Positions 647 through 22,348 of a stretch of 22,348 nt of DNA are shown piece by piece; the first letter of the stretch is position 1, and the number at the start of each line of letters is the position of its first letter. The notes under the pieces were generated by a model, which was given only the letters and a program-made list of their open reading frames with translations, was not told where the DNA came from and did no database searches. Origin of the DNA: a virus; IMG/VR virus record IMGVR_UViG_3300028873_000067, positions 1 through 22,348 of that record; one strand, given 5' to 3'. The translations under genes were made by a program, and so were the position numbers.

Positions 647-676
647 TTTGGTCTCTAAAATTTTACTGTAAATTTT
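647..676 (+). promoter_or_regulatory. Candidate Bacteroidota-type promoter before the tail operon
   Basis: TTTG at 647-650 is followed 18 nt later by TAAATTTT at 669-676. This approximates the Bacteroidota pattern TTTG, a spacer of about 19-21, then TAnnTTTG, but with one mismatch and a slightly short spacer. It lies ~155 nt upstream of the gp25-like gene. AT-rich DNA can mimic this by chance. Confidence 0.25.
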
Positions 677-831
677 TAAAGTGGTTGCCCTTTTTGGTGG
701 TGAATGATGTGCAGTTGATCAACGGTGCTAACGCCACTGTCGTTTTATAGTAGTAATTCAGCCCGGACCATAAATGTAATAACGGCAATAGAAGGGTAAA
801 TGAGGCTATTGTTTAATGAATTTTATAGGCT

Positions 832-1191: not shown

Positions 1192-1196
1192 ATATT

Positions 1197-1523
1197 ATGA
1201 CAGGCGTATTTACAGGAATTACCGGGACTTTAATTGCGGATGCTGCAGTACCTTTTTTAAGGAGTGGTTACGGTTACAATATCACTATAGAATGGGCAGG
1301 CGTTAAGTATAGCTCTTCCGGATTTATTGATATACCATCAGTGGTGAGCTGGGCGCAGAGTAGTTACGGGAGTATAGGACAGTGGGTATATGGAAAGGAT
1401 ATTGTAGCAGTATATGCTAATAGGGGGGTGCAGGATGTGGCTGTAAATATTACAACCGACTTATTGCCTGCAGGAGATTTTGACCCGAGGGATTTTGACC
1501 CGAGGGATTTTTATGTAGGATAA
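1197..1523 (+). CDS. Hypothetical tail-region protein with DFDPR tandem
   Basis: This 108-residue protein starts 5 nt after the gp25-like stop, so it is in the tail operon. I do not recognise the family. It is rich in Gly, Ser, Val and aromatic residues, without a signal peptide or transmembrane segment, as is common for small structural proteins. Its C-terminus carries two exact copies of DFDPR (residues ~94-103) encoded by a 15-bp tandem duplication, followed by a partial third unit (DF). Position between the wedge protein and a fibre suggests a baseplate or fibre-attachment part; that is inference from context only. Confidence 0.6.
   Translation: MTGVFTGITGTLIADAAVPFLRSGYGYNITIEWAGVKYSSSGFIDIPSVVSWAQSSYGSIGQWVYGKDIVAVYANRGVQDVAVNITTDLLPAGDFDPRDFDPRDFYVG
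1476..1511 (+). repeat. 15-bp in-frame tandem repeat
   Basis: GATTTTGACCCGAGG occurs at 1476-1490 and again, identically, at 1491-1505, followed by the first six bases of a third copy. The unit length is a multiple of three, so gain or loss of copies would keep the reading frame. Confidence 0.9.
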
Positions 1524-1533
1524 ACAAAAAGCG

Positions 1534-2979: not shown

Positions 2980-3008
2980 TATTTTTTTAACTATTAAAAT
3001 TAAATGAA

Positions 3009-3335
3009 ATGCAATTATCTGATTACAAAGTATGGTTAGCAACAGCCGTGTGCCGCAACCCGGCATGTTCTTTTGTTGCGGTATCTATTCAGACAGATAC
3101 TAACGGAAATCCTTCAGCCATAGTTGGAACAATATCTACGCCAGCTATACCGGCTGTAGCTGCTGTGCCACCGAGTGCAGGAAACCAGACAGGTACACCC
3201 GGCATTCCCGCCGTACCTGCACAAACAAATGTAGCTATGTCCTGGAATATGAACGGAACGGCTATGAACCGTGATCGCGGTCTGGACCTTGTGCAGAGCG
3301 TTCCTCTTTCGTCAATCACTGTGCCTACGACTTAA
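3009..3335 (+). CDS. Hypothetical structural protein with Pro/Ala-rich middle
   Basis: This 108-residue protein follows the fibre gene by 29 nt. A central low-complexity segment (residues ~42-72) repeats short Pro/Ala/Gly units such as IPAV, with TPAIPAVAAVPP followed by TPGIPAVPAQ. It is flanked by ordinary-looking ends. There is no signal peptide or transmembrane helix. The family is not recognised. It could be a fibre chaperone, a small baseplate part or a cap for the preceding fibre, but only gene position supports this. Another ATG five bases upstream (3004) is in a different frame, so ATG 3009 is taken as the start. Confidence 0.55.
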   Translation: MQLSDYKVWLATAVCRNPACSFVAVSIQTDTNGNPSAIVGTISTPAIPAVAAVPPSAGNQTGTPGIPAVPAQTNVAMSWNMNGTAMNRDRGLDLVQSVPLSSITVPTT

Positions 3336-3351
3336 GAAATGTCCTTTTACA

Positions 3352-3381
3352 ACCTTCTTTCTCAGCAATGAGAAAGAAGGT
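3352..3381. terminator. Perfect 13-bp hairpin, possible terminator or processing site
   Basis: ACCTTCTTTCTCA (3352-3364) and TGAGAAAGAAGGT (3369-3381) are perfectly complementary around a GCAA tetraloop. It lies 16 nt after the stop of the preceding gene. No T-run follows on either strand, so it is not a textbook intrinsic terminator. It may mark the end of the fibre insert or act as an RNA-stabilising or processing hairpin. Confidence 0.5.
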
Positions 3382-3408
3382 ACTGTAATGTAGATGGGAA
3401 AGCGATGT

Positions 3409-3424
3409 AAAGGAGGTGATACAG
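3409..3424 (+). promoter_or_regulatory. Extended anti-16S (super Shine-Dalgarno) sequence
   Basis: AAAGGAGGTGAT at 3409-3420, followed after one mismatch by CAGC (ends 3425 at most), is the complement of the conserved 3' end of 16S rRNA. It does not sit at normal spacing before a long gene. The next ATG with a closer GAGGTG is at 3444 and opens a nine-codon frame. In a phage that otherwise shows few Shine-Dalgarno sites this is conspicuous. Confidence 0.45.
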
Positions 3425-3443
3425 CTGGCTAGTGAGGTGAAAA

Positions 3444-3473
3444 ATGAGTGGTTACCGTTTTAAAATTATTTGA
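3444..3473 (+). other. Possible 9-residue leader peptide coupled to baseplate J
   Basis: ATG at 3444 is preceded by GAGGTG with 4 nt spacing and opens the frame MSGYRFKII. Its TGA stop (3471-3473) overlaps the ATG of baseplate J (3473), giving a TGATG junction typical of translational coupling. The peptide is too short to assess by composition, and chance cannot be excluded. Confidence 0.3.
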
Positions 3474-4594
3474 TGGCAGGTACGTATATACAGTTTGTAG
3501 ATGATAGCGTGGACACAGCGCTTGCGGATGCAATTAACGATTATCAGAGTATTTCCGGGCGTACACTTGGTAACGCTGATCCGGAAATGCTGCTTATAAA
3601 TGCTTTCGCGTACAGGATGGCGAAGATACGGACACAAATAAATTATGTAGGTAATCAAAATCTTATTGCCAATGCTACCGGAGCTGCCTTAGATGAATTG
3701 GCAGCGAAATTCGATGTATTCAGGTTAGATCCCAGCGCTGCAGAGGTGGCTATACTTTTTACTACCGTGGCTGGTGCACCTACATTAGTAATAGCAGCCG
3801 GAACACAAATAAAAAGCCAGGATGGCCTTGTGCTGTTTGCCACCAATGCAGATCTTACTATACTAACGGGTGCCATCACCGGTACGGTTGATGCAACATG
3901 TACTACGCCAGGCGTAATAGGCAACGGATATCTAAGCGGCATGGTAAGTATTATTGTTGATCCCCAACCATTTGTTACCACCGCAAGCAATACCTCCACT
4001 ACCACAGGAGGCAGTGATGCGGAAACGGACGACCAGTTAAGAATACGTATACCACTTGCCTCATCAACTTTCAGCGTTGCCGGTCCATATGATGGTTATG
4101 TTTATTGGGCGAAGACTGCCAGCCCTTCAATTATCGATGTGAGCATAACTACACCGGTGCCAGGGACTGTAAATATATATCCACTGCTTGCCGATGGCGT
4201 AATACCTGACAGTGCAATCCTTGATCTTGTAGAAGGTGTGTGCAGTGGCCGGAAAGTACGGCCACTGAATGATACTGTTGTGGCTGTAGCACCAACGGCG
4301 GTAAATTATAGCCTTACAGCATCGATAACAGTACTTGCCAATTTTAATACGACTGCTGTAAGTGCACAGGTCTTAGCTAACCTCAATGCTTTTGTGAATG
4401 TGTGGACCAACGGATGGGGTGCATTAGGGTATGATATAATCGTGGATCAGCTCATAGGGCAATGTATGAATGTGCCGGGTGTGTACAGCGTGGATTTTGG
4501 AGGCCTTACCGATACTATTCTTGACGATACTGAATTTTCAAATTGCACCGGTGTAACTGTAAACGTAGTAGGAGTTGTGAGCGAACCGCATTAA
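3473..4594 (+). CDS. Baseplate assembly protein J-like
   Basis: This 373-residue protein belongs to the Baseplate_J family (P2 gpJ, T4 gp6-like), which forms the wedge ring around the baseplate hub. Family landmarks are TGGSDAETDDQLRIRIP (about residues 178-194), then FSVAGPYDGYVYWAKTASPSI (about 200-220) with the PGTVNIY strand after it, and GRKVRPLNDTV (about 262-272). Length is normal for the family. ATG 3473 is preferred over an upstream TTG at 3470, because ATG gives the usual start and overlaps the short leader frame. It is followed after 3 nt by tail protein I, the conserved J-I order of P2-like phages. Confidence 0.92.
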   Translation: MAGTYIQFVDDSVDTALADAINDYQSISGRTLGNADPEMLLINAFAYRMAKIRTQINYVGNQNLIANATGAALDELAAKFDVFRLDPSAAEVAILFTTVAGAPTLVIAAGTQIKSQDGLVLFATNADLTILTGAITGTVDATCTTPGVIGNGYLSGMVSIIVDPQPFVTTASNTSTTTGGSDAETDDQLRIRIPLASSTFSVAGPYDGYVYWAKTASPSIIDVSITTPVPGTVNIYPLLADGVIPDSAILDLVEGVCSGRKVRPLNDTVVAVAPTAVNYSLTASITVLANFNTTAVSAQVLANLNAFVNVWTNGWGALGYDIIVDQLIGQCMNVPGVYSVDFGGLTDTILDDTEFSNCTGVTVNVVGVVSEPH

Positions 4595-4597
4595 ACA

Positions 4598-5269
4598 ATG
4601 AATAAAAATGTAATAATAGCCGATAGTATCAAGTATCAACCGCATATGTATGCGTTTGATATCTGGATGCAAGAAGCATTCCGGAGACTGGATGTAAGCC
4701 AGTTGCTATTATATTTTGTAGATACAGTAAACCCCGCAGTGTTACCAATCCTGGCGCAGGAATTTGATGTATTGGGTAACAAGGGATGGAATTTTACAAC
4801 GGACGTCGCCGATCAGCGGGCGCTTATAAAAAAAGCGATTGAGCTTCATAAATATAAAGGCACTCCGTGGGCAATTGACCAGGTATTGATACAGGCAGGC
4901 CTTACGGGAGCAACATTACAGGAAAGCGTAGGGACTGATCCTGATACAGGGTGGGCAGTCTTCAGGATAGTGATAGATACAAGCCTTTTAATGCCTGATC
5001 CGGCGCAAATAGCCAATGCAATTACGCTGATCATGCTGTATAAGAACCAGCGAAGCGTGTTGGATGGGCTTTATTACACCGGGCTTGATTTTACGGAGAC
5101 AAGCGGCCTCGCGCTGAACGAAGAAAACCTGATCATTGATGCAGATGAGACGCTTGCCGGTGACAGTATGGGTACACATGGATCGTTTTATTACAATGGT
5201 GCTGTTTATTATGATGGGAGCCATAATTACAGCCAGGATACAGACACGATTTTCATTGAATTGATATAG
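4598..5269 (+). CDS. Tail protein I-like (P2 gpI family)
   Basis: This 223-residue protein matches the Tail_P2_I family that completes the baseplate wedge with gpJ and gpW. The conserved region is residues ~30-105: LDVSQLLLYFVDTVNPAVLP, then a QEFDVLG-type segment, and the typical 'lI..ai.lHkyKGTpwai..vL...G' stretch, seen as AIELHKYKGTPWAIDQVLIQ. The C-terminal ~60 residues contain a YYNGAVYYDGSHNYSQ segment resembling strand repeats that join to fibres. It is 3 nt downstream of J. The fibre-like proteins that follow probably attach through this protein. Confidence 0.9.
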   Translation: MNKNVIIADSIKYQPHMYAFDIWMQEAFRRLDVSQLLLYFVDTVNPAVLPILAQEFDVLGNKGWNFTTDVADQRALIKKAIELHKYKGTPWAIDQVLIQAGLTGATLQESVGTDPDTGWAVFRIVIDTSLLMPDPAQIANAITLIMLYKNQRSVLDGLYYTGLDFTETSGLALNEENLIIDADETLAGDSMGTHGSFYYNGAVYYDGSHNYSQDTDTIFIELI

Positions 5270-5283
5270 TAAAATTTGTTTTT

Positions 5284-5739
5284 ATGAAAAATGATAGCGT
5301 AAAATTGAAAGGAGTATTCCAGATGAAGTGCATAGAACACGGAACAGGTAAAATACTTCATGAATTTGAGGATAACAACCTTATCGTGACACTCGGCCAG
5401 ACAGCTACAGTCTACCTGCTCGGCGCTGATGTAAGCGCATCCCCGGTAACACAAATAGGAGTGGGAACCAGCAACACGCCTGCGACTATTGCTGATACGA
5501 CCCTTACAGGGGCTTTTATAAAGAACCTGAACACTGCCGGCACAGTGAATACCTATACTTCGAACTCAGTAACATTCGGATATCAGTTTGATACTACTGA
5601 GGCTAATGGTATGACGATATGGGAATTTGGATTATTTACCACCAGCGGCGTTTTGGTGGCGCATAAAGTGTTGAGCGCATCAATTGTGAAGAATAGCAGC
5701 TTTGCAATTGCCGGCACATGGACAATCACAGTAAGTTAA
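5284..5739 (+). CDS. Tail fibre-associated structural protein
   Basis: This 151-residue, beta-rich protein has the look of phage fibre N-terminal or head-binding modules: 'DNNLIVTLGQTATVYLLGAD', then a 'IGVGTSNTPAT..DTTLTGAF' segment, then MTIWEFGLFTTSGVLVAHKV. Such 'N.iv..G......l.g......i..G.G...' proteins occur beside tail fibres in many dsDNA phages. The start at 5284 follows a TTTTT-ATG leader usual for this genome; ATG 5323 (MKCIEHG) is an alternative. It is preceded by tail protein I and followed 10 nt later by the collar fibre, so it is probably part of the distal fibre or its adaptor. Confidence 0.65.
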   Translation: MKNDSVKLKGVFQMKCIEHGTGKILHEFEDNNLIVTLGQTATVYLLGADVSASPVTQIGVGTSNTPATIADTTLTGAFIKNLNTAGTVNTYTSNSVTFGYQFDTTEANGMTIWEFGLFTTSGVLVAHKVLSASIVKNSSFAIAGTWTITVS

Positions 5740-5749
5740 AAGCATTTTT

Positions 5750-6868
5750 ATGACTAATTATAATGGCAATCCTTCAGGCCCATTAAATACAGGCGTACCG
5801 CTGGTAGATACAACAGACCTTGTAATTGGCGGCGCTTCCGGCAATGCAAATGCCGCTACAAAGCTGCTAATGGACAATGATGCTTACCTGTATGGTTTAT
5901 TAGGCAAATTTGAAGGTGTTGTAACATTGAATGTTTCTGCGGGAGCAACGGCAAATATTACTGTAGCTAACCTGACCAATAACCTGCTACTGATGAACGT
6001 GAACGCAGCAACTAATTTCACAGGTAACTTGCCGGATGTCGGAACTTATCCCGTAGGAGGAATTGCAGTTGTCAAAAGACAAGGGGCTTATTCAAACCCG
6101 GTTACTTTACAGGCACATGCCGGGCAAACTTTTTCAGACAGGAATGGCAACACACCATCAAGTATATTTTTGCATAATGGCGAAAGTGTGACTTTATGTA
6201 ATGTTAGCAGTAAATGGCAAATACTGGAAGTTGACGGCAATTATTATGATGTAGGTGATCAGATGTTTGGATATAATATAAAGCCAGGCACATTGAAAAG
6301 GGATGGTACACTTTACGGCCGGGCCGGTTACCCTAGGTTATGGGCGTGGATATTAGCCAATGGTCTTGCAGTAAGTGATGCCACCTGGTCAAGTAATCCG
6401 GGCGGCTCATTGTGTCCTTATCCTTATAAATCGATGTTCAGTACAGGTGATGGCTCTACTACTTTCAGAGTGCCGGATGACAGGGGATTATTTGACCGGG
6501 CGTTAGACATAGGAGCCGGTATAGATGCTGACCGTGTAAGCGCATTGCTTGAAGATACCGTGGCAAGTAAGGAAGCGGATAGCTTTTCGAGCCATACGCA
6601 CATCATTGATCAGACACCGCACACACACGGCACCAGTGAGACGCCACATACACACCAGGTTGGCACATATAACACTACCGGAGGCGCAGAAAGCGGGCTG
6701 GCAGGTATTGTAGATTCCAACAGTTGTACTCCTGATCCATTTGCTTCCGGTGGAGCTGTTACCGGTTTGGGCATTAACAACGCTTCGATTATTATTTCAA
6801 ATGAAAATACCGGTGGTACAGAAAACAGGCCTATCAATGTGGGTAAGCTTCCCCTGCTGGTTTATTAG
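5750..6868 (+). CDS. Collar-domain tail fibre protein
   Basis: This 372-residue protein carries a phage tail collar domain (about residues 168-255). The domain reads as GDQMFGYNIKPGTLKRDGTL, then 'YPRLWAWI' and FSTGDGSTTFRVPDDRGLFD, the standard 'G.....gw....G...s...yp.L......g.gdG.tTF.lPdlRG.f.Rg' pattern. Beyond it are three HTH motifs (H282-H284, H291-H293, H300-H302), as in T4 gp12 and relatives, where HxH motifs bind metal along the trimer axis. The end 'ENRPINVGKLPLLVY' matches the usual 'RP.N......i' terminus. The N-terminal half is a beta-rich shaft. It is probably a receptor-binding short tail fibre. Confidence 0.88.
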   Translation: MTNYNGNPSGPLNTGVPLVDTTDLVIGGASGNANAATKLLMDNDAYLYGLLGKFEGVVTLNVSAGATANITVANLTNNLLLMNVNAATNFTGNLPDVGTYPVGGIAVVKRQGAYSNPVTLQAHAGQTFSDRNGNTPSSIFLHNGESVTLCNVSSKWQILEVDGNYYDVGDQMFGYNIKPGTLKRDGTLYGRAGYPRLWAWILANGLAVSDATWSSNPGGSLCPYPYKSMFSTGDGSTTFRVPDDRGLFDRALDIGAGIDADRVSALLEDTVASKEADSFSSHTHIIDQTPHTHGTSETPHTHQVGTYNTTGGAESGLAGIVDSNSCTPDPFASGGAVTGLGINNASIIISNENTGGTENRPINVGKLPLLVY

Positions 6869-6913
6869 GCAATAGAAGGGGATTAACGAGATAATTGTAT
6901 TCATTTTTGCCAC

Positions 6914-7192
6914 ATGCAGGAAGTTAAGCTATGGATATTGGTTTCATTAGTTGTGATCATGGGGTCTGTGCTTGGTTTCATAGGTAAAGTGGTTACAAAA
7001 ATTATTATTCAAAGGCTTGACGATATAGTGAAAGAGTTGAGGGAATTAAATAAAGCTTCGTCAATGCATGCACAGGATATTAAGAATTTGCAAGAAGCAG
7101 ATACTGTTATAAATCACAGGCTTAATAATCATGCTGATAGAATAAGGGTAATTGAAATGAAAGGTGCTAAGACTAATCACATTGACACTTAA
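6914..7192 (+). CDS. XhlA-like membrane/coiled-coil lysis accessory protein
   Basis: This 92-residue protein has one N-terminal transmembrane helix (about residues 5-25) and then a long amphipathic helix or coiled coil (about 34-80, leucines and isoleucines at heptad spacing, ending VINHRLNNHADRIRVIE). This resembles the XhlA/hemolysin-like phage proteins that sit beside holins, although orientation varies between families. It lies 45 nt after the collar fibre and just before the holin candidate, the usual start of a lysis module. Function is inferred from topology and position rather than from a strict motif. Confidence 0.6.
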   Translation: MQEVKLWILVSLVVIMGSVLGFIGKVVTKIIIQRLDDIVKELRELNKASSMHAQDIKNLQEADTVINHRLNNHADRIRVIEMKGAKTNHIDT

Positions 7193-7201
7193 TTAAATTT
7201 T

Positions 7202-7567
7202 ATGAATACCATAGAACAAAAAATTTGTTACACCGGCATCAGGTATTGGTTGAAAAGATTTACGAGTAAATCGCCAAAATGGGCCGTCCGAATACAGTGG
7301 GTTGGCGGTGTCGCCGCTTCATTATGGGCGTTGGCCATCATGCTTGATCAGAGTGGTTTCTTTTCATTTATGACTGCGCAGCAGCATACAAAATTTGTGC
7401 TGATTACTACAGCAGTAAGCGGGATGCTTACAGGATGTGGTTTTGTTGCAAAACTTCCCTCGACAGATCCTAACCTGGTGCCTGAGGAGGTGAAAGCGGC
7501 AATACTTAACCAGGCGGTACAAAACGGCACGCATGCTATTGTGAAGCAGTCAACCGGTATGATCTAA
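7202..7567 (+). CDS. Putative holin
   Basis: This 121-residue protein has a basic N-terminus (WLKRF...KSPKWAVR), two hydrophobic helices (about residues 31-48 and 64-83) and a hydrophilic tail that includes PEEVKAAILNQAVQNGTH. Two transmembrane segments, a short length and a place between an XhlA-like protein and the endolysin are what is expected of a holin, the membrane pore that times lysis. The N-terminal segment is longer than in many class II holins. It ends in TAATG, overlapping the next tiny gene by one base, so the two are probably translated together. Confidence 0.6.
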   Translation: MNTIEQKICYTGIRYWLKRFTSKSPKWAVRIQWVGGVAASLWALAIMLDQSGFFSFMTAQQHTKFVLITTAVSGMLTGCGFVAKLPSTDPNLVPEEVKAAILNQAVQNGTHAIVKQSTGMI

Positions 7568-7653
7568 TGGATCATCCATACATAGCGTCTGTATGTATTT
7601 TGGGTGCTTTTGTTTTATGTTGTTACCTGCATTACCTGGGCAGGCCTAAGTAA
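7567..7653 (+). CDS. Tiny single-span membrane protein
   Basis: This 28-residue protein (MDHPYIASVCILGAFVLCCY, then a basic tail LHYLGRPK) consists essentially of one transmembrane helix. Its ATG shares an A with the TAA of the holin candidate (TAATG), so it is likely read by translational coupling. It is too small for a family assignment. A regulator or partner of the holin is a reasonable guess; it could also be a chance frame. Confidence 0.45.
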   Translation: MDHPYIASVCILGAFVLCCYLHYLGRPK

Positions 7654-7680
7654 GTTTTTTTAACCTTTAAATACGTTTTT

Positions 7681-8145
7681 ATGTCTTTTTTGAAAAATCT
7701 TGTTGACAAAGTTGAAGTAGATCTGGGTGATGTTGGGGCTGCCCTTACGGCAGCTCACCTAAGCGCTGTTACGAAGGTGCTGACCAATATTGATAATGTG
7801 CTAAAGAACCCGATAGTGGATGGTGTATTGGGAACTGTACTAGATCCACAGATCACTAAATTACTTCCTCAGTTTACTACTGTCCTTGATAAAGCGATAG
7901 TGGACCTGACTATAGCTACTAAGATAGCAGGTGATATAGCCGCTGCCACTTCTACAGAGGCCAAACTTATCATCTTCCTGAAGGACCTACAGGCTGAAAA
8001 TCCTATTATTAAGAGTGCTTTGCTTGATGCCCTTTGCGGCCTTATGCTTGCGGCACTCGGAAATAATGTGTTTTCGGCCCAGATATACGCTATATATGCA
8101 TCCTGTAAGAACTACCTGGCTACGGGTAAACTGCTCGCAGCTTAA
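7681..8145 (+). CDS. Hypothetical Ala/Leu-rich protein of the lysis region
   Basis: This 154-residue protein starts after a TTTTT-ATG leader. It is helical, Ala/Leu/Ile-rich and slightly acidic, with repeated 'VLxxIDNVL / VLDPQITKLLPQFTTVLDKAI' amphipathic segments. A more hydrophobic C-terminal stretch (about residues 113-143, ALLDALCGLMLAALGNNVF onward) could be membrane-associated. No catalytic motif is visible. It lies between the holin candidate and the endolysin, with a hairpin following its stop. I do not recognise the family. Confidence 0.6.
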   Translation: MSFLKNLVDKVEVDLGDVGAALTAAHLSAVTKVLTNIDNVLKNPIVDGVLGTVLDPQITKLLPQFTTVLDKAIVDLTIATKIAGDIAAATSTEAKLIIFLKDLQAENPIIKSALLDALCGLMLAALGNNVFSAQIYAIYASCKNYLATGKLLAA

Positions 8146-8164
8146 TAATCATTTTTTTATAACT

Positions 8165-8197
8165 AATTAACCGGGTGCCATTCGCATCCGGTTAATT
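8165..8197. terminator. Intergenic 10-bp hairpin
   Basis: AATTAACCGG (8165-8174) pairs perfectly with CCGGTTAATT (8188-8197) around a 13-nt loop that can add a TGC/GCA pair. It is 19 nt after the stop of the preceding gene and 13 nt before the endolysin ATG. No T-run follows, so it may modulate endolysin expression or RNA stability rather than terminate. Confidence 0.5.
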
Positions 8198-8210
8198 CAT
8201 TCAAAAGGCA

Positions 8211-8618
8211 ATGGCAGATTTCGAATTATTTTTTCCGCTGATAGTAACTGACGAAAAACTTATTGTTACTGATGATCCTAACGATAGCGGTAAGTATTCG
8301 GTAGCAGGTATATCCAGTGTGGACGATCCGGACGATCCAGCTGTACTCAAAGCGAAAGAACTTGGGTTGACAGATGGCCAGTGGGATGAGTCGCTTTTAC
8401 CGCTAGTAAAAGACTTCTACCGTAACAGGGAATGGAAGTTGTATTGCGGGGACCAGATCATTAACCAGGAGGCGGTAAATACTATTGGTGATCGCGGGGT
8501 AAATATTGGCGCTGGTGAAAGTATAAAAATGACACAGCGCCAGGTAGGCGTAGAAGATACCGGCATCATGGATGCGGAAACTATTGCAAAAATAAACGAG
8601 TTAAATCCATACGCATGA
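8211..8618 (+). CDS. Endolysin, glycoside hydrolase 108-like muramidase
   Basis: This 135-residue protein resembles the GH108 family of phage lysozymes, which cleave the N-acetylmuramic acid to N-acetylglucosamine bond of peptidoglycan. The N-terminal pattern fits: Glu15 in the position of the catalytic Glu, then DDPNDSGKYSVAGISS (about residues 21-36), the counterpart of 'ndP.DpGG.T..Gis'. FYRNREWKLYCGDQI (about 69-83) corresponds to the 'Y....W.....i' segment, and the end 'MTQRQVGVEDTGIMDAETIAKIN' matches the substrate-lobe 'Q...gv..DG.ig..T...I'. It is shorter than typical GH108 proteins (~160-180 residues), and the usual GG after the Glu is not conserved, so activity is likely but not certain. 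It overlaps the next gene by ATGA. Confidence 0.75.
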   Translation: MADFELFFPLIVTDEKLIVTDDPNDSGKYSVAGISSVDDPDDPAVLKAKELGLTDGQWDESLLPLVKDFYRNREWKLYCGDQIINQEAVNTIGDRGVNIGAGESIKMTQRQVGVEDTGIMDAETIAKINELNPYA

Positions 8619-8941
8619 GAAAGATACTTTTAATATTCACGTTATTGGCTTGTACACTGGCTTGTACACTGGCAGGGACCGCAAAAGTTACCGATAGCTG
8701 TAGTTATTACAGAGCCAAATGCGACAGCCTGGAGCATGCCAGCTTCATACTATACTCACAAGTAGATTGGGTGCAATATTACCTTGCGCTGATGCAGAAA
8801 CGGCAAAAAGATACCGTTTATTCGAAAGGGTGGCTTATCAGGGCCGTTGCGAATAAATTACCTGCTAACCCATATATGGGGACACCTGTAAAGAAGCAAG
8901 TGCATAAATCTGCGACAAAAAAGACAATCAAAAAGCACTAA
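8615..8941 (+). CDS. Secreted or lipoprotein spanin-like lysis protein
   Basis: This 108-residue protein starts inside the endolysin stop (ATGA overlap), so it is co-translated with it. It has a short basic N-terminus and a hydrophobic signal peptide (about residues 4-20) containing LLAC and TLAC, either of which could be a lipobox, though neither is a perfect match. The rest is hydrophilic with a very basic Lys-rich tail (HKSATKKTIKKH). Position right after the endolysin, and an exported basic protein, suggest an outer- or single-component spanin linking the membranes at lysis. A periplasmic accessory protein is the alternative. Confidence 0.55.
   Translation: MRKILLIFTLLACTLACTLAGTAKVTDSCSYYRAKCDSLEHASFILYSQVDWVQYYLALMQKRQKDTVYSKGWLIRAVANKLPANPYMGTPVKKQVHKSATKKTIKKH
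8647..8673 (+). repeat. 12-bp tandem duplication in signal peptide
   Basis: GGCTTGTACACT occurs at 8647-8658 and again at 8659-8670, with the first three bases of a third copy. It duplicates the ACTL unit in frame and so doubles the candidate lipobox Cys. Confidence 0.9.
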
Positions 8942-12464: not shown

Positions 12465-12854
12465 ATGGAATACAACTTTCAAGACATTACTACTCCGGAA
12501 GCAGCCTTTGCAGTTCAAGGCCTTGATATATTCAAGACACCAGACTTTAGCAATTACCCTGCTAATATGCGTGAGCATCTTGTGCATGAATGGCGCTGCC
12601 TTGTCTGCATTGCTGCAGTGAATGGTGATTTTGTGCCGGACTGGAAAAACCCTGACCAAATTAGATACATGATCCTATCATGGGTAGTAAGGGATGATTC
12701 CAAGCCTTCCGGGTTCGGGCTTTCGTACTACGACTTCGATAACTCGTACACGTGCACGTTTGTCGGGGCTCGCCTTGTCTTCGGAAGCACGGAGAAACGC
12801 GCTCACTTCAGAAAATATTTTTGGGAGGTTTGGGAAGCTTACTATTTATCGTAA
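12465..12854 (+). CDS. Variable-repeat protein 1 (candidate DGR target)
   Basis: This 129-residue protein belongs to a family common in Bacteroidota phages, with a 'NG.f.PDW.N..q......' segment (here VNGDFVPDWKNPDQIRYM, residues 52-69), a 'sGFGlSyY' segment and an ending like 'GaRLvf.s.e.A..f...f.e.y..yyl'. Residues 82-104 are encoded by a 67-bp block nearly identical to one in the gene at 21652-22056, although the proteins are otherwise only weakly alike. The variable residues are D90, F91, D92, N93, S94, T96, C97 and F99. The biochemical role is unknown; a binding surface that is diversified by a retroelement is the working idea. It lies in the early operon, not next to the tail genes. Confidence 0.7.
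   Translation: MEYNFQDITTPEAAFAVQGLDIFKTPDFSNYPANMREHLVHEWRCLVCIAAVNGDFVPDWKNPDQIRYMILSWVVRDDSKPSGFGLSYYDFDNSYTCTFVGARLVFGSTEKRAHFRKYFWEVWEAYYLS
12709..12775 (+). repeat. Variable repeat copy 1
   Basis: This 67-bp block matches 21902-21968 at 59 of 67 bases. The eight differences are at 12733, 12736, 12739, 12742, 12744, 12750, 12753 and 12760. Each has A in exactly one of the two copies and each lies in codon position 1 or 2. The invariant right end, GTCGGGGCTCGCCT, is GC-rich like the initiation-of-mutagenic-homology segment of DGR repeats. Confidence 0.75.
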
Positions 12855-15546: not shown

Positions 15547-16086
15547 ATGGGATTTTTTAAAGAGTTATTTATTGCGAGTGAAGCGCTCGACCTCACACTA
15601 AAGATAAAGCGTGTGAAAGATGAACTGGTGATCAGTGTACTGCCTGAGAATGTGGATGATATACAACCACTGACTATTTCAGGTACGCATGAAGAGCTGG
15701 ACGCGGGATTTTTTCAGCACATAAAACCGGCACTCGATAAGACACGGGTAATGGTGAGGAACCTGGAGCAATATGAGAGCCAATTGAAGGTGATAGAGGA
15801 GGAGAAAAAAGAGGAGATCGAAAACAAAAAAAAACCGGCCCCAGCTAAAAAAACTGTAACACCCGCTAAGAAAGCACCTGCGGCAAAAAAGGCTGCGCCT
15901 GCTAAGAAAGCTGCGCCGCCGAAAGAAAGTGCTGCCGATAAAAAGACCGCTCCGAAAAATACTGTAGGTAAAAAGAAACAAGAAAATGATACCAACACCC
16001 AGGATATTAAAATATCTGACCCTATTGTAGTATCCGGAACGGAGGTTAAAAATCCGGCTAGGCCATTGCAGTTATTAATTGAGTAG
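15547..16086 (+). CDS. PRTRC system protein E-like
   Basis: This 179-residue protein starts 19 nt after the clamp. Residues ~1-80 match PRTRC protein E: 'FFKELFIASEALDLTLKIKR', a 'v.v.PenvdD..PL.isGTHEELDAGFF' stretch, and a helix. A charged helix (EEEKKEEIENKKK) leads to a Lys/Ala/Pro-rich tail (about residues 95-145) of AAPAKKA-like repeats that resembles histone H1 or SWIB tails and may bind DNA or carry modifications. PRTRC genes (named for ParB-related, ThiF-related and Cys-rich members) are usually found on plasmids and integrative elements; their biochemistry is poorly known. It is the first gene of the cluster. Confidence 0.75.
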   Translation: MGFFKELFIASEALDLTLKIKRVKDELVISVLPENVDDIQPLTISGTHEELDAGFFQHIKPALDKTRVMVRNLEQYESQLKVIEEEKKEEIENKKKPAPAKKTVTPAKKAPAAKKAAPAKKAAPPKESAADKKTAPKNTVGKKKQENDTNTQDIKISDPIVVSGTEVKNPARPLQLLIE

Positions 16087-16089
16087 TGT

Positions 16090-16344
16090 ATGAGTTGGGA
16101 TTTTGAAAATGGCGATATCGATCCTTTCTTCAGGCGATTAAGTGATATTGAACTTAATAGATGGAAAGCAGATTACGAGCGTATAATTAAGAAGAACGAC
16201 CCGGCTAACGATGGCGATAAGGCAAAAACACCATGGATGTTACCCGCATGGTCCAGAGGCCTTGAAATGGTAAATAAAATAATAAACGAGCGCAATATCG
16301 CTTCAAAACAGAATGTTGTTTTTAAACAAATGTTAATCGAATAA
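16090..16344 (+). CDS. Small protein within the PRTRC cluster
   Basis: This 84-residue protein (begins MSWDFENGDIDPFFRRLSDI) starts 3 nt after PRTRC-E. It is charged, helical and rich in Trp/Arg/Lys, with a middle segment NDPANDGDKAKTPWMLPAW. No motif is recognised. Tight packing between E and C implies that it belongs to the same functional unit. Confidence 0.6.
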   Translation: MSWDFENGDIDPFFRRLSDIELNRWKADYERIIKKNDPANDGDKAKTPWMLPAWSRGLEMVNKIINERNIASKQNVVFKQMLIE

Positions 16345-16354
16345 AAAATATACT

Positions 16355-16573
16355 ATGGCTTTACAGGTAACGAACCTCACGCGGGTTTTCAAAATGAAGA
16401 AGGATGGCAAAGAGATCACGCTTACTGATTTGCCAGGCATGCCACCGGCTGACGTAATGAAATTTTATGCGGCCACTTATCCAGAGCTTACTAATGGGGT
16501 AGTGCAGGGACCGGTGGTGGTAAAGGATAATGCTATTTATACAATGACAACGAAGGCCGGCCAGCTTGGTTAA
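16355..16573 (+). CDS. Ubiquitin-like protein, PRTRC-C / Prok_Ub family
   Basis: This 72-residue protein matches PRTRC system protein C, which overlaps the prokaryotic ubiquitin-like (Prok_Ub, beta-grasp) family. The family pattern is 'RvF...g..l.DlPg..p.dV...Ya.tYPELtna.v.GP.......Y.......G.lG', seen here as ITLTDLPGMPPADVMKFYA and YPELTNGVVQGPVVVK. The C-terminus ends AGQLG with a free terminal Gly, so it would not need a processing protease before activation by an E1-like enzyme. This fits the ThiF and E2-D genes downstream. Conjugation, rather than some other role, is inference from family and neighbours. Confidence 0.82.
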   Translation: MALQVTNLTRVFKMKKDGKEITLTDLPGMPPADVMKFYAATYPELTNGVVQGPVVVKDNAIYTMTTKAGQLG

Positions 16574-16577
16574 TTAA

Positions 16578-16775
16578 ATGCTTATGGATACGCTTGAATA
16601 TGTTAAACAACGAAGGAAATTAAAATGCGTACATCAAACAAGAAAAGTACCGACCGACCTTCACGACAGGATAGGAAGGTTATTGCTTCAGGAAATGGGG
16701 GTAAGGTCAAAAATGGAAATTCAAAAGCCGGAAGTGGTATTGCTGCCTCCTCAGGAACTGGATTACATCTTTTGA
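16578..16775 (+). CDS. Small protein between PRTRC-C and the large cluster protein
   Basis: This 65-residue protein starts 4 nt after the ubiquitin-like gene (ATG 16578 or 16584). The frame has natural codon use and an amphipathic, basic helix, YVKQRRKLKCVHQTRKVPTD, followed by LHDRIGRLLLQEMGVRSKME and a short VVLLPPQELDYIF end. It overlaps, in another frame, the first 151 bases of the longest version of the following ORF. I prefer this frame over that one in the overlap. Function unknown. Confidence 0.55.
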   Translation: MLMDTLEYVKQRRKLKCVHQTRKVPTDLHDRIGRLLLQEMGVRSKMEIQKPEVVLLPPQELDYIF

Positions 16776-16813
16776 GCCAGGAGCTTAAGGGCATATCCCT
16801 TTTTCAGCTTAAA

Positions 16814-17902
16814 ATGATATCCGGAAATAATGATATCTATCCGATGCCAGCAGGGCTGTTAGAAATAATAAATACCGAGGCAAAACAGCTTCAATGTATC
16901 GAGGATCTGTATGCAATCGTGAAGGCGCAGCCCAAGTATAAAAATATGAAGGAACCCCAGTGGACCATAGACAGCAGCCCTATAGAGGTAATATGCCGCT
17001 TGTTAAGAAAGCTAAGCCCTCTAGCTAAAGTAGGAAGATGGACCGTTGATAGCTTCGTGGATAAGGCCGATCCAAATAAACTGAGATACCGATTTGTAGC
17101 CTATAAATATTATAGCAGTAATGAACTGCGTGATAGCGAAGAGTTTTTATCGCTTGATTTTCTTCCTTTTTTAAAGGATCGTGATATTGCCATGCATGAT
17201 ATGATCATTGACACTGTGGCACTTGTAAGTAAGGCAAATAAAGTGCCTTTGTGGGATGAGGATGGAGATTATTCCTTATGCATGAAAGAGCTTGGATCTT
17301 CCTGCTGTTTAGGTAATAATAATCATGTTTTGATGCAACAGTATGCGTCATATTTCGGAGGCGTGGCTTCGCAGTACTTGAAATTAATAAAAAGCAGGCG
17401 TAGGGTAATAACCATTGAAATGATCCGGGCGCAGGTATTGAAATATCGTATCACCAGCTGGAGAAAGCGCCGGGTAATATATTGGGTACAGGCAGCTTTA
17501 GAGCTTGCCGAGAAAGGCGGCTGCATTGCTGACCATACTTATGTGCCACACTATAAAAAGGGAACTCCCTGGACGCCGTACCGGTCCTATAAGTTTATAT
17601 GGAGCTGCCATCAAAACGACTGTATACATAAAAGGGCTAACAGTGTGTTACAGAAAGACCTCAGTAAATACGGCATTTTCGTTCCGTTAATGTTTAGTAT
17701 CGCTAAGCCGGGCCAGGTATTTAAAGAGATAAAAGGAAGTGTTTTCCCAGTGAAGTTATATGATTTTATGCGGGATGGTATCAGTATATTCTTATGGCGA
17801 CACCGCACATATTTCTATAAAGAAATGATGAATGCCCAGGAGACACCGGCAGAGACTTTACTTGAACGGATTGAATTAGCTGAAATTAAAGATGAATTAT
17901 AA
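16814..17902 (+). CDS. Large PRTRC-cluster protein of unknown function
   Basis: The open frame runs from 16625 (425 residues), but its first ~60 residues are Ser/Gly/Lys low complexity and lie over the 65-residue gene in another frame. ATG 16814, giving 362 residues, is therefore the more likely start. The protein is a mix of helix and strand with a central basic stretch (SRRRVITIEMIRAQVLKYRI, then WRKRR) and several Cys (SSCCLG; CHQNDCIHK). It sits between PRTRC-C and PRTRC-B, a place where Bacteroidota PRTRC clusters commonly hold an uncharacterised gene of this size. PRTRC-F is one candidate by size and place; I cannot confirm it. Another possibility is a -1 frameshift from the 65-residue gene at the CTTTTGA near 16770. 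Confidence 0.6.
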   Translation: MISGNNDIYPMPAGLLEIINTEAKQLQCIEDLYAIVKAQPKYKNMKEPQWTIDSSPIEVICRLLRKLSPLAKVGRWTVDSFVDKADPNKLRYRFVAYKYYSSNELRDSEEFLSLDFLPFLKDRDIAMHDMIIDTVALVSKANKVPLWDEDGDYSLCMKELGSSCCLGNNNHVLMQQYASYFGGVASQYLKLIKSRRRVITIEMIRAQVLKYRITSWRKRRVIYWVQAALELAEKGGCIADHTYVPHYKKGTPWTPYRSYKFIWSCHQNDCIHKRANSVLQKDLSKYGIFVPLMFSIAKPGQVFKEIKGSVFPVKLYDFMRDGISIFLWRHRTYFYKEMMNAQETPAETLLERIELAEIKDEL

Positions 17903-17911
17903 TTAGTTTTT

Positions 17912-18700
17912 ATGAATGACACAAATGTTAACCGCCAGTTGCACCCAAAGGTAGTGATCACTGTATATCGCGATCAGAGTAAGAATAATTTTTACCTCGA
18001 AAGCCGTGAGGTTAAAAATGTAGGTGGTAAAGTGTTGCTCGGGGCAGCAGTACCTATGGCTGATGATATTTTCAGGAATATGGCTGTGAGCTATGCAAAG
18101 AACAACAGTTTTGAAATGGATTTTGGTGGATATATAAGTGCTCACATGCTTTACGGGACTAATAAGCTTGGAAAAACTATGGTATGCTGGTACAGGCCTT
18201 CTATGAAACGTACACTTAATTTTTCCGCCTCATTGGGTATAAAAGGTAATAGTGTGGTATATGTTCCGGCAACCTTTTATGTGATCATCAATACAAAGCT
18301 CTATGTATACGCCCTTATGAATGATGAGCGGCCCGAATGGAAAACGAAGCTTTATAATGCTCCATTCTTTAATATTTATAAAGATGGGAATGTATGTCTT
18401 GGGAGTGCACAGGTGGGTAAATATAAAGCTAAGACGTTTGAAAAAGAGGCTGAACGCTTTGAAACCGGTTTTTACATGGCCGAACAAAATAACGTGCACA
18501 ATGACCGCATGTGTAAAAGTAATCCTAAGACACTTTGGAACCGGCTGATAAAGGAAGGAAGTGTGTTCCCGAGTAAAAATGAACTGCAGCAGCATAGTAA
18601 ATATAAAACAGTGGGTGAACTTATTGAAAATTTAATTGGCAACAAAAATGGCTCCAACTACGAAGAAGACTTCGAGGACGACGATATCGAAATCGAATAA
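17912..18700 (+). CDS. E2-like protein, PRTRC-B / Prok-E2 family D
   Basis: This 262-residue protein matches PRTRC system protein B, the prokaryotic E2 family D. Landmarks are CWYRPSMKRTLNFSA (about residues 92-106), a KGNSVVYVPATFYVII strand region, and KLYNAPFFNIYKDGNVCLGS (about 146-165). In the last, Cys162 of 'NVCLGS' is in the place of the catalytic E2 Cys. Such proteins would carry a thioester-linked ubiquitin-like partner. The C-terminal tail (about 250-262) is strongly acidic. Its last 53 bases overlap the start of the E1-like gene. Active-site placement is by family pattern, not by experiment. Confidence 0.82.
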   Translation: MNDTNVNRQLHPKVVITVYRDQSKNNFYLESREVKNVGGKVLLGAAVPMADDIFRNMAVSYAKNNSFEMDFGGYISAHMLYGTNKLGKTMVCWYRPSMKRTLNFSASLGIKGNSVVYVPATFYVIINTKLYVYALMNDERPEWKTKLYNAPFFNIYKDGNVCLGSAQVGKYKAKTFEKEAERFETGFYMAEQNNVHNDRMCKSNPKTLWNRLIKEGSVFPSKNELQQHSKYKTVGELIENLIGNKNGSNYEEDFEDDDIEIE

Positions 18701-19571
18701 TAAAAAGGTGGCCGTGCAGGCACCTGTCAAAGAAGCTGTTCATTATACAGCTGCATATCTCATAGATCCACAGCATCCGGTGACGGTAAATGTGATCGGA
18801 TGCGGTGGCACAGGAAGCCAGGTGATCAACACACTTGGCAGGATGCACAGTGCGCTTAAGGCACTTGGACACCCTGGATTATTTGTAAGGGCTATTGATC
18901 CTGACAAGGTAACTGATGCCAACGCTGCCAGGCAGTTATTCAGCCCTGCAGATGTGGATGGATATAAATGCACAATTCTGGTTGGAAGGATAAACCGGTT
19001 TTTCGGAACTGACTGGGAAGCTTTTCCACTCACTTATACAGCTAAAAGCGAAATAAAGGCGGCTAATATTACGATCAGTTGTGTAGATAGCGGTAAGGCC
19101 AGGAAAGAGATAAAAATGCATCTTATGGCCGCTGTTGCCGCTATAGAACCGAAGCGAGCCACACCACTTGGACGTGTGACCAACTATGCATATATAAGGG
19201 AGCGTGCCGAACCATACGAAATACCTTACTACTGGATGGATTACGGAAATATGCGTGACCGCGGGCAAATGGTAATAGGTACTCTTCAGAAAATAAAACA
19301 GCCTACCGGCAGTGAGTATATATGCCGTGATACACTTCCTTCGATTGACAAATTACACCCTGATATTTTCAGGGACCGGAAGGGGAGCGATCAAGGCCCC
19401 AGCTGCTCACTAGCTGAGGCGATTGGCAGACAAGATCTATTAATCAATACAAATCTTGCTAATAAAGGCCTGGAAATACTATGGAAGTTATTTCACGAGG
19501 CGCATATAAAATATCATGGGGTATATGTGAACCAGGAGACGATGAGCGATAACGGCATTAGGATTAGGTGA
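18648..19571 (+). CDS. E1-like ThiF-family protein, PRTRC-ThiF
   Basis: This 307-residue protein (from ATG 18648; the longer frame opens at TTG 18636) is a ThiF/E1-type adenylating enzyme. After a basic Lys/Ser/Thr N-terminus comes VIGCGGTGSQVINTLGRM (about residues 49-66, nucleotide-binding GxGGxG), then AIDPDKVTDANAARQLF (about 82-98, with the conserved Asp and Arg), and ISCVDSGKARKEI. Cys253 in QGPSCSLAEAI is the best candidate for a transfer cysteine. It would activate the ubiquitin-like protein C-terminus with ATP and pass it to E2. It shares 53 bp with the E2 gene in another frame. No JAB-type protease (PRTRC-A) or ParB-like member is visible in this window. Confidence 0.85.
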   Translation: MAPTTKKTSRTTISKSNNKKVAVQAPVKEAVHYTAAYLIDPQHPVTVNVIGCGGTGSQVINTLGRMHSALKALGHPGLFVRAIDPDKVTDANAARQLFSPADVDGYKCTILVGRINRFFGTDWEAFPLTYTAKSEIKAANITISCVDSGKARKEIKMHLMAAVAAIEPKRATPLGRVTNYAYIRERAEPYEIPYYWMDYGNMRDRGQMVIGTLQKIKQPTGSEYICRDTLPSIDKLHPDIFRDRKGSDQGPSCSLAEAIGRQDLLINTNLANKGLEILWKLFHEAHIKYHGVYVNQETMSDNGIRIR

Positions 19572-19583
19572 ATTATTAACAAG

Positions 19584-20016
19584 TGTTATAACAGAAATAA
19601 TGGTTACAGAACCCTGGTTTAAATTATATGTAGGTGATTATATGCGCGATACCCGGCCGCTTAGTGTTGCCGCCAGGGGAGCATATCAGGAAATTAGAGT
19701 ACAAATGTGGATCAGTAAAGAGCGTGGTGTTATAACAGGTGATATAACAGAGTTGCAAGTTTTGTTAGGTTTCCGTAATAACGAAATTGAAGTTTTGCTC
19801 GGGGAACTTTTTCAAAAGGAGGTTTTTATTATTGAAAAACTTGCGCATGGAAAGCTGAAAATTACAGACCGTTCCATGGTTGCAAATGCCATGAAATCAG
19901 CGCAGAAAGCGGCGGCAGGAAAAAAAGGAATGAAAAAACGTTATGAAGCAAAAAAAGAAAATGAAAATCCTGTTATAACAGATGATATAACACCTGTTAT
20001 AACAAATGATATAACC
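19584..20016. repeat. Iteron-like repeats, candidate replication origin
   Basis: The palindrome TGTTATAACA occurs at 19584-19593, 19728-19737, 19971-19980 and 19995-20004. The last three are followed by (G/A)(G/A)TGATATAAC to form 22-bp units at 19728, 19971 and 19995, the last two spaced 24 bp apart. They lie just upstream of and inside the replication-protein gene, next to an A-rich tract at about 19905-19968. Lambda-like phages place their origin iterons inside the initiator gene (O). The units also encode VITxDIT repeats, so a protein-repeat origin is possible. Confidence 0.6.
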
Positions 20017-20586
20017 TATATGGTATCTGATACTCTGGTATCTAATACTGAATTAGAAAAAGGGGGTTCGGGGGAAAAAGAAAAACCGCCACCTGAGCTA
20101 CCCGCAAAGAAAGTCACCGTAAAGAGCGGCAATGAAATATTGACCCTTGAAGACTGCCTGACTGCTTTTTTGGAAAGTAATGTTTGCGGGCAGGTGCGGG
20201 ATTTGGTGGCCGCGAAACTGATGCTATACGGCCCAACGACCTTAACCGAACGGATAGCATGGCTCAACAACAGGATGCGTGGATGGGCCCGCAGGTTTAA
20301 CGAGCGGTTGGTAGGTGAGCTAATGCAGGTACGTGCACTGAATGAATGGTGCTCGCATTTTATGAACTGGCTGAATATACAGGATTTGAAAACTAACCCT
20401 AATGATGGCAACAATGGGCAACAAGGAGCTGGAAATAAAACAGGCAACATTACTTCAGGTCCTGGACCAAAAGGAGGGGCAACGCTTGCAGATCTCCAAG
20501 CGCTTAAGCATGGTGGAGCTGCAGATAATCCGGAACGAACTGAATTCTCCCATTTTACGGTGGTTAACGGAGAAGGAGGCGCATGA
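19600..20586 (+). CDS. Replication initiation-like protein (DUF1376-type N-terminus)
   Basis: This 328-residue protein opens with WFKLYVGDYMRDTRPLSVAA and RGAYQEI (about residues 6-32), then GVITGDITELQVLLGF, the pattern of the winged-helix DUF1376-type domain seen in phage replication proteins near origins. A Lys-rich linker (about 102-126) is followed by the VIT.DIT repeats, an EKPPPELPAKK linker and a helical C-terminal domain (about 175-265). The last ~60 residues are Gly-rich and overlap the next gene by 185 bases. By position and architecture it is a lambda-O-like origin-binding protein; the iterons inside its gene fit that. Direct DNA binding is inferred. Confidence 0.68.
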   Translation: MVTEPWFKLYVGDYMRDTRPLSVAARGAYQEIRVQMWISKERGVITGDITELQVLLGFRNNEIEVLLGELFQKEVFIIEKLAHGKLKITDRSMVANAMKSAQKAAAGKKGMKKRYEAKKENENPVITDDITPVITNDITYMVSDTLVSNTELEKGGSGEKEKPPPELPAKKVTVKSGNEILTLEDCLTAFLESNVCGQVRDLVAAKLMLYGPTTLTERIAWLNNRMRGWARRFNERLVGELMQVRALNEWCSHFMNWLNIQDLKTNPNDGNNGQQGAGNKTGNITSGPGPKGGATLADLQALKHGGAADNPERTEFSHFTVVNGEGGA

Positions 20587-21334
20587 TGAGCTAATGGATA
20601 TTATCTCTGAAATAAAGATACTAACAGGTGTACCCCTGATGGAGCTTAAAGAGGTAGGGATTCAGATTGAAGTATTAAAAAGGTTTATGTTGTCTTCGCC
20701 ACAGTTTGCAGGGTTGACAACAAATGAGGTTAGACATGCTTTCTACCTGAATAACCAAGGCGAATACGACGAAGTATATAGGCACTTTAACAAGGTTCTA
20801 AATGCGGAATTTGTAGGGGATGTGCTTAGGGCCTACGTGAAATACAAGACTGCTTTATACCGGAAAAAAGCGAGAGAAATAAAGTTACTGCTCGGGCCAG
20901 CGGTTGAAAGAAAAGAAGTACCGATACCGAATGAAATTGAATTACAGCAGATGATACAACATGACTACAACAATTATTTGGCAGGATCAACAGAGTTCAT
21001 CTATCTGTACACCGGTGTGTATAAACTGCTTCGCAAATATGGAGGCATACAGATACACTCGCGCCAATACTGGCACAAGCTGATTGGCTACGCTATACAG
21101 GACCGGATCAGGATAAGTAAATCCACATTATTCCGGAAAGATGTATCGGAGAAGGATAACATTTTGAGGTTGCGCGGCATATATGAGACTTATGAGGCGG
21201 AGGGCTGGATACCATCATCTGAATACCGGATGGTGATCTATACGCTACAGAAGAAATTGTACTTCCGGTTTCTTAAGACTATGGCCTATTTCAATATCAA
21301 AGACATTTTCAAAGAGGTAAAAATTACAAAATGA
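20402..21334 (+). CDS. Probable replication-associated protein, unknown family
   Basis: This 310-residue protein is largely helical, with acidic and basic blocks and a central segment AREIKLLLGPAVERKEVPIP that leads to NEIELQQMIQHDYNNYLAGS. No Walker motif is seen, so it is not an obvious DnaC-like ATPase or helicase. It begins inside the end of the O-like gene in another frame (185-base overlap), and its own first 60 residues (including EIKQATLLQVLDQKEG, VELQIIRNELNSPILRW) look like real protein. A helicase loader or a DNA-binding partner of the initiator is plausible from position only. It ends with an ATGA overlap with the next gene. Confidence 0.6.
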   Translation: MMATMGNKELEIKQATLLQVLDQKEGQRLQISKRLSMVELQIIRNELNSPILRWLTEKEAHDELMDIISEIKILTGVPLMELKEVGIQIEVLKRFMLSSPQFAGLTTNEVRHAFYLNNQGEYDEVYRHFNKVLNAEFVGDVLRAYVKYKTALYRKKAREIKLLLGPAVERKEVPIPNEIELQQMIQHDYNNYLAGSTEFIYLYTGVYKLLRKYGGIQIHSRQYWHKLIGYAIQDRIRISKSTLFRKDVSEKDNILRLRGIYETYEAEGWIPSSEYRMVIYTLQKKLYFRFLKTMAYFNIKDIFKEVKITK

Positions 21335-21618
21335 AAACAGGGATAGAATTAATCGCTATTGAGCGCAAAGAACAAATTGAAAAACATGGAAGAACGCCTG
21401 AACGAGATGTTGCAGAGAACGTTAAGGGTCAACTAATAGAGGCTACAATAGCATTACTTGAAACTGATGGTGATTTGTTTCCCGAAAGTTGGTCAGGTGC
21501 TATTTGCGAAAAAATGCTAATGAAACCATATATTAATAGGTTGATTATTGCAGGCGCATTAATAGCCGCCGAGATTGACCGTTACAATAATATTACTAAT
21601 CAAAGCAAGGGTAAATAA
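21331..21618 (+). CDS. Small conserved phage protein
   Basis: This 95-residue protein has the pattern 'TGIELIaiERkEQiekHGrT.erDv......L..A...L', then 'lfPesW.......k....nrLiiAGALIAAEIDRynn'. It is a family that occurs widely in phages and prophages, usually near replication genes, without an assigned function. It is mostly helical. It overlaps the previous gene by ATGA, so it is translated with it. Confidence 0.7.
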   Translation: MKTGIELIAIERKEQIEKHGRTPERDVAENVKGQLIEATIALLETDGDLFPESWSGAICEKMLMKPYINRLIIAGALIAAEIDRYNNITNQSKGK

Positions 21619-21651
21619 GTATTTATTTATTAATCATAAAAACAAGCAACA

Positions 21652-22056
21652 ATGACAGACAGAACATTGCCGATGCCTACGAAGGTGGCAGATTCGTTTA
21701 AGAACCTTGGTATACCCGAGGATGCATACCCGGACCTTTCAAAGGTGCCGGAGCGGTTTCACGTTGCCATCAGGAAGCATTACGAGCTTATGGTTGTGAC
21801 AGAGGATGTGAATGGCCAGGATTATGAGCCTGACTTTACCAACATGGAGGAAGAGAAATGTATACCGGTGTTTATTGTAGATGCCGATGAAGAGCATAAG
21901 ACCGGGTTCGGGCTTTCGTACTACGGCTACGTTAGCACGTACGCGAGCACGTATGTCGGGGCTCGCCTGCTTTGTAAAGACGATGACACTGCCGAATATA
22001 TTGGTGAGACATTCCGCGAGGAGATATTTGAGCCTTACATGCTTAAAGGAAAATAA
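21652..22056 (+). CDS. Variable-repeat protein 2 (candidate DGR target)
   Basis: This 134-residue paralogue of the protein at 12465-12854 shares the family plan: helical N-terminus, 'VNGQDYEPDFTN' (residues 53-64), 'KTGFGLSYY' and an ending 'VGARLLCKDDDTAEYIGETF' plus a short EEIFEPYMLKGK-like tail, with low identity elsewhere. Residues 84-106 come from the shared 67-bp block. The residues that differ from copy 1 are G92, Y93, V94, S95, T96, A98, S99 and Y101. The gene is last but one before the right edge, followed by a third family member. Function unknown; diversification is inferred from the nucleotide pattern. Confidence 0.7.
   Translation: MTDRTLPMPTKVADSFKNLGIPEDAYPDLSKVPERFHVAIRKHYELMVVTEDVNGQDYEPDFTNMEEEKCIPVFIVDADEEHKTGFGLSYYGYVSTYASTYVGARLLCKDDDTAEYIGETFREEIFEPYMLKGK
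21902..21968 (+). repeat. Variable repeat copy 2
   Basis: This is the counterpart of 12709-12775. The differences are at 21926, 21929, 21932, 21935, 21937, 21943, 21946 and 21953. The first 24 bases and the last 14 bases are identical in both copies, and no third codon position differs. Similarity ends sharply on both sides. Confidence 0.75.
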
Positions 22057-22084
22057 ATTCATTTCATTATTAACAATATCAGGT

Positions 22085-22348
22085 ATGCACTATACAGAGA
22101 TCATAAATATAGAGGCGGTTTTCAAAGCCCTAGGGATGAAACCAGATGCCTTAAAAAATGCCGAGGTAGCTTTTATAAAGCTGGCGAAACTATTACCCCC
22201 TAAGCTGCGGGAGAAGTATATAAAACGCAAACTGGCCGAATTTGTAGTAGATATTATAACTCTTGCCATTAATGGAGATTGGGAAGCAGACTGGACCAAT
22301 ACTGCACAGACCAGGCTAAGCATCTGGTGGTTCATAAAAGCCAATAAG
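22085..22348 (+). CDS. Partial third member of the variable-repeat family
   Basis: The frame from ATG 22085 is open to the window end (88 residues so far). After a longer helical N-terminus (MHYTEIINIEAVFKALGMKP onward) it has 'LAINGDWEADWTN' (about residues 60-72), which aligns with VNGDFVPDWKN and VNGQDYEPDFTN of the two variable-repeat proteins, then 'TRLSIWWFIKANK'. In the two complete members the 67-bp block begins ~45-60 bases after this point, so a third copy would lie just beyond the right edge. Confidence 0.7.
   Translation, partial: MHYTEIINIEAVFKALGMKPDALKNAEVAFIKLAKLLPPKLREKYIKRKLAEFVVDIITLAINGDWEADWTNTAQTRLSIWWFIKANK

Follow-up and report, generated by a model that had tools for sequence, protein, structure and literature searches.

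Most of the targets studied in phage diversity-generating retroelements (DGRs) are tail or attachment proteins (PMC8144416). The DGR of Bordetella phage BPP-1 (mtd, Avd, TR, bRT), which has been reconstituted in E. coli (PMC12875486), has a single tail-fibre target, and Avd lies between this target and the template. The locus described here resembles it in having a homologous reverse transcriptase (RT), a template adjacent to the RT, A-specific differences and a repeat close to the 3' end of its target gene, but it differs in that there are three small targets, none of which is a known tail gene, and in having a different small protein, located after the RT. No space for an ORF of Avd, a protein that not all DGRs have, was present between target and template; an Avd gene elsewhere in the genome is possible.

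A different kind of target was reported in Quimbyvirus, in which a non-structural hypervariable protein is encoded near methyltransferases (PMC8008677). This was the sole case that we found when searching the literature for phage DGRs whose targets are early genes or non-structural. The RT of Quimbyvirus, unlike the one described below, is split over frames, and one tail-region and one early target are present, whereas every target found here is of the early type. Another example involved the Bacteroides phage LoVEphage, whose early target (33613-34197, 195 aa) matched our target-family profile (3e-23) and contains a repeat of the LoVEphage template. It is located among methyltransferase and tRNA-ligase genes, in this respect resembling the Quimbyvirus target. 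One template in LoVEphage feeds both a tail-region gene and this small early target, a further difference from the present locus with its early-type targets, and BT-TP2 likewise has one template for a tail-region gene and an early target-family gene. The BT-TP2 gene (PQ571279.1) is unannotated and crosses the ends of the record (44874-45224 and 1-306); a stretch of about 50 residues is repeated in the joined translation, which is probably due to end redundancy of the assembly. An early or non-structural DGR target is therefore an already known kind, represented by LoVEphage and Quimbyvirus.

Among named phages, the nearest RTs (approximately 42-50% identity) were those of the crAss-like DGRs cr53_1, cr52_1 and LMMB, which differ from the present locus in having a tail protein gene beside the RT. 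Homologs of the small protein that follows our RT were found directly after the RT in the archaeal viruses vir525 and ANMV-1. However, the RT is preceded by a tail protein gene in vir525, and in ANMV-1 by AdtA, which is annotated as the DGR target and has been compared to a tail fibre. The tandem arrangement of small targets and the recurring non-Avd accessory protein appear to be undescribed in the literature searched.

Paired blocks, template repeat and reverse transcriptase

The window, that is, the whole stretch of DNA analysed, is an IMG/VR record of 22,348 bases. A preliminary description of this sequence had proposed that two blocks, 12709-12775 and 21902-21968, are DGR targets, and its observations were reproduced in full: the blocks were identical at 59 of 67 bases, A was present in exactly one copy at all eight differences (p~0.004 at an expectation of 50%), and all eight fell at codon positions 1 or 2, the frame being identical in both genes. 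Ungapped DNA likeness of the two target genes was lost directly outside the block on both flanks. A single-protein search with target 1 yielded zero relatives. A degenerate DNA pattern of conserved codons matched three IMG/VR contigs, including one (designated L003) whose positions 1-5517 correspond to window positions 16832-22348 with 100% identity over 5,517 bases and which extends 2.4 kb beyond the window end. The DGR reading was borne out on this overlapping contig, where a template repeat and a DGR-type RT lie side by side. The features are as follows.

12465-12854, + strand: target gene 1 (129 aa, phrog_11581-like), about 10 kb upstream of the RT
12709-12771, + strand: core of variable repeat 1 (VR1), an ungapped match to L003:5715-5777; the block reaches 12775 in comparison with VR2
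21652-22056, + strand: target gene 2 (134 aa, phrog_11581-like), an open frame with a family match
21902-21964, + strand: core of VR2, matching the template; the block reaches 21968 in comparison with VR1
22085-22348, + strand: target gene 3, 5' part only; the complete gene is L003:5254-5673 (139 aa)
L003:5528-5590 (window-equivalent 22359-22421): VR3, which begins 11 bases beyond the window end
L003:5715-5777 (window-equivalent 22546-22608): template repeat
L003:5889-6944 (window-equivalent 22720-23775): RT
L003:6826-7128: accessory ORF, after the RT

Two of the targets adjoin the RT and one is approximately 10 kb away. The template repeat is located outside the target genes, between the stop of target 3 (5673) and the start of the RT (5889), and has the sequence CCAGGTTCAGGCTTTCGTACAACGACTACGATAACACGAACACGAACACGAGTGTCGGGGCTC. 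When the template pattern with N at each A was searched in the window, two matches were obtained, exactly the two blocks, with 0 mismatches; 100 dinucleotide shuffles gave no match with 3 mismatches permitted. Compared with the template, VR1 had 10 differences (9 at template A), VR2 had 11 (10 at template A) and VR3 had 11 (9 at template A), and the enrichment of mismatches at A versus non-A sites was significant for each of them (Fisher, p=1.7e-5, 3.2e-6 and 8.1e-5, respectively). The preliminary description had proposed looking for a third copy with A at the variable sites. The template has A at seven of the eight sites; the exception is position 52, which is G in the template and T, A and T in VR1, VR2 and VR3. 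We tentatively take this G to have arisen in the template afterwards. One additional non-A difference was present at the 5' edge of VR3.

In the frame of the targets, the template contains four AAC codons, and a stop codon cannot be reached by any change of A. At template positions 3 and 9 (L003:5717 and 5723) the template has A but all three repeats have G, each giving Gly; either the protein is under selection at these residues, in our reading, or replacement ends here on the 5' side. Two related loci (L004 and L005) likewise had a fixed A-to-G difference at this edge. As to the other end, the preliminary description had compared the GC-rich invariant 3' segment to an IMH, and the sequence GTCGGGGCTC, common to the template and the repeats, agrees with such an assignment. 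No hairpin stem of at least 6 bp common to the three targets was found after the repeats. This result is not decisive because a downstream hairpin is reported to be needed in only a subset of DGRs (PMC3521204). Searches with the template pattern across IMG/VR revealed no further variant of this phage, for which one haplotype is known.

The RT encoded on L003 is full length and matches Pfam RVT_1 (2.7e-16) and phrog_1423 (4.5e-111). Both the IGNYLSQ motif (IGxxxSQ) and YADD are intact, and the SQ motif is a mark of DGR RTs (PMC3521204). Its best match in PDB was 8ub7, the Bordetella BPP-1 RT (2e-39), and the best group II intron RT scored 2e-16. A defence RT was considered and rejected: PADLOC matches were weaker than phrog_1423, and the best of them was a generic RT model. 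In phylogenetic analysis, the 38 RTs of small-target loci that were included fell to the same side of a modestly supported branch (86/85), and the crAss-like RTs with tail targets were nearest to them. This tree, from which near-copies and RTs with internal stops in the matched range were left out, is rough, with several long reference branches and with stops masked in the crAss sequences.

Layout and activity of related loci

We further analysed related loci identified by an RT-alignment search; the sample comprises the best 80 of 474 confirmed relatives and is accordingly biased. In 75 of these 80 loci a template was located just upstream of the RT and was accompanied by one to four repeats, usually two, and the shared order was small target genes (usually two), template, RT and then a protein of about 100 residues. 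Template-repeat pairs were found in 75 of the 80 loci with A as the mutable base, compared to 0 with C, 2 with T and 16 with G; the 16 loci of the G control are read as repeat-to-repeat matches. In 149 pairs taken together, the repeat differed from the template at 69% of A sites versus 3% of other sites, the latter figure being bounded by the search filter. The target profile had matches in 75 loci, and the lengths of the target genes clustered at 122-175 aa.

Remote repeats comparable to VR1 were present in two relatives (L058 and L045), 4-9 kb off. Whole-record BLAST searches of five relatives, which were not exhaustive and missed heavily mutated repeats, detected repeats near the RT in four. 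The L058 record contained four repeats, among them the known remote targets (39787-39855 and 52663-52731) and another at 571-639. In one relative, L004 (IMGVR_UViG_3300047994_000588), a DGR of this type is preceded by ORFs (2676-8865) that, by eye, resemble a Mu-type transposase, a MuB-like ATPase and Gam; judging from these ORFs, the DGR cassette may also occur in transposable phages.

Comparison of near-identical loci provided evidence of activity. L067 and L079, which came from different samples, differed at 13 of 4,590 bases; 12 of the differences were in one repeat, all at template-A sites. Between L024 and L027, all nine repeat differences were at template A, and the remaining listed differences lay towards the end of the alignment. 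The preliminary description had regarded equal non-A variation in relatives as contrary to its reading; what we observed in these near-identical genomes is A-only variation in the repeats. This lineage of DGRs is therefore functional in nature. As one haplotype of the phage described here is known, activity in this exact phage is deduced from these relatives.

Target proteins, gene neighbourhood and the protein after the RT

Both targets 1 and 2 match phrog_11581, a family of unknown function, and no family was identified for the target proteins in Pfam, NCBIfam or PADLOC. Conservation within the target family is highest in the part encoded by the block (GFGLSY...VGxRL), and the variable repeats end approximately 25-30 codons before the target stop. 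An AlphaFold2 model of the target, based on an alignment of 89 sequences, had a pLDDT of 86, with a value of about 50 in the variable loop. Foldseek found no match for this model in PDB; two BFVD matches at E<0.001 were both uncharacterised phage proteins. On these results, the region around the variable repeat may or may not adopt a C-type lectin fold.

Genes in the window are arranged in the order of tail genes (baseplate, tail fibre), endolysin, then an integrase and a repressor-like gene on the opposite strand, followed by target 1, beta clamp, a PRTRC cassette, a primosomal protein, target 2 and target 3. None of the window tail genes (832-6868) was matched by the template pattern. The commonest annotated neighbours in the relatives were helicases, primases, exonucleases, replication initiators, methyltransferases and terminases, these being taken from the 25 commonest of 115-133 families, such that rarer tail genes could go unseen. 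We call the targets early-region by gene content and infer their time of expression. The proposal that an early-region protein family, rather than a tail tip, is diversified gained support from these neighbourhoods.

Two other features of the window were observed. The PRTRC cassette between the target genes (15547-19571) has its C and ThiF components above the NCBIfam cut-off and B and E below it, and is seemingly unusual cargo for a phage. In the tail region, a 481-aa protein (1534-2979) contains many degenerate LYDxSGN...DW repeats; it had no family match, and the repeats were not visible as DNA tandem repeats.

The protein of about 100 aa encoded after the RT (phrog_19665) was present in 78 of the best 80 of 474 relatives. 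Its profile had no match in the fetched regions of the crAss-like DGRs cr53_1, cr52_1 and LMMB. The model of this protein had a pLDDT of 90 and weak OB-fold, RPA-like and SSB-like matches (all E>0.03), a suggestion of an OB fold. Since the protein is linked to the RT whatever the target, including in vir525 and ANMV-1, we suggest that it serves retrohoming, perhaps by binding cDNA or template RNA. It is a candidate accessory factor for DGRs that lack Avd at the usual place.

Alternative explanations and the role of the targets

Our data indicate that the blocks are almost certainly variable repeats of one phage DGR with at least three target genes. We infer the steps of retrohoming in this phage as follows. 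Template-repeat RNA would be copied by the adjacent DGR RT with errors at template adenines, and the mutated cDNA would then be exchanged for a block of 63-67 bp in each target gene; the GC-rich invariant 3' end next to the replaced block is the likely initiation site. With AAC-type codons in the template, about 14 residues would be variable without a stop codon ever being generated.

Paralogues in phages recombine, and the block is the best conserved part of its family; on these grounds it could be a protein motif that evolves slowly, or the product of recent gene conversion between paralogues, with the bias toward A arising by chance. However, conversion yields neither A-only differences nor a separate template with A at seven of eight sites beside a DGR RT, and the near-identical phages differ almost exclusively at template-A sites. 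Gene conversion was rejected after the template repeat and the RT were found, and the motif or conversion explanation as a whole is extremely improbable. A formerly active DGR that is now frozen in this phage is unlikely, if less so: template position 52 is out of step with the repeats and one haplotype is known, yet the RT is of full length and has its motifs intact, the three targets are open, and activity is seen in close relatives that share the layout.

The nature of the targets is a separate question. They could be virion-borne adhesins, such as tail accessory or decoration proteins, encoded off the tail operon and involved in ordinary tropism switching, and the prominence of tail and attachment proteins among the studied targets is consistent with this, as are the tail genes adjoining the nearest named-phage RTs (crAss-like). 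Terminase, portal and neck protein genes are located downstream, and late transcription is therefore possible; an adhesin may also be produced early or become part of the virion. On the other hand, the targets, single-domain proteins mostly of 120-175 aa, lack any recognisable part for attachment to the tail and match no fold in PDB, and the single template of LoVEphage and of BT-TP2 diversifies a tail-region gene as well as a small early protein of this family, suggesting that the latter has a separate job. We consider a virion adhesin a serious but lesser candidate and favour a role in intracellular conflict. Our best guess from the gene neighbourhood is that the targets are probably variable binding proteins that act inside the cell against host factors that change, such as defence proteins, and are not receptor-binding tips. 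More tentatively, there might be a broad phage DGR lineage, probably of Bacteroidota phages, with mainly tandem small intracellular targets acting against defence or on host machinery, in which Avd is replaced by a dedicated accessory protein that has an OB fold and binds nucleic acid.

The function of the targets can be tested in culturable Bacteroides phages (LoVEphage-type and BT-TP2), because in these a template feeds a member of the target family together with a tail-region target. Phage DGRs have mostly been explained as a means of changing receptor-binding tips; the occurrence of at least 75 loci with small targets in replication regions implies that phages hypermutate something else too.
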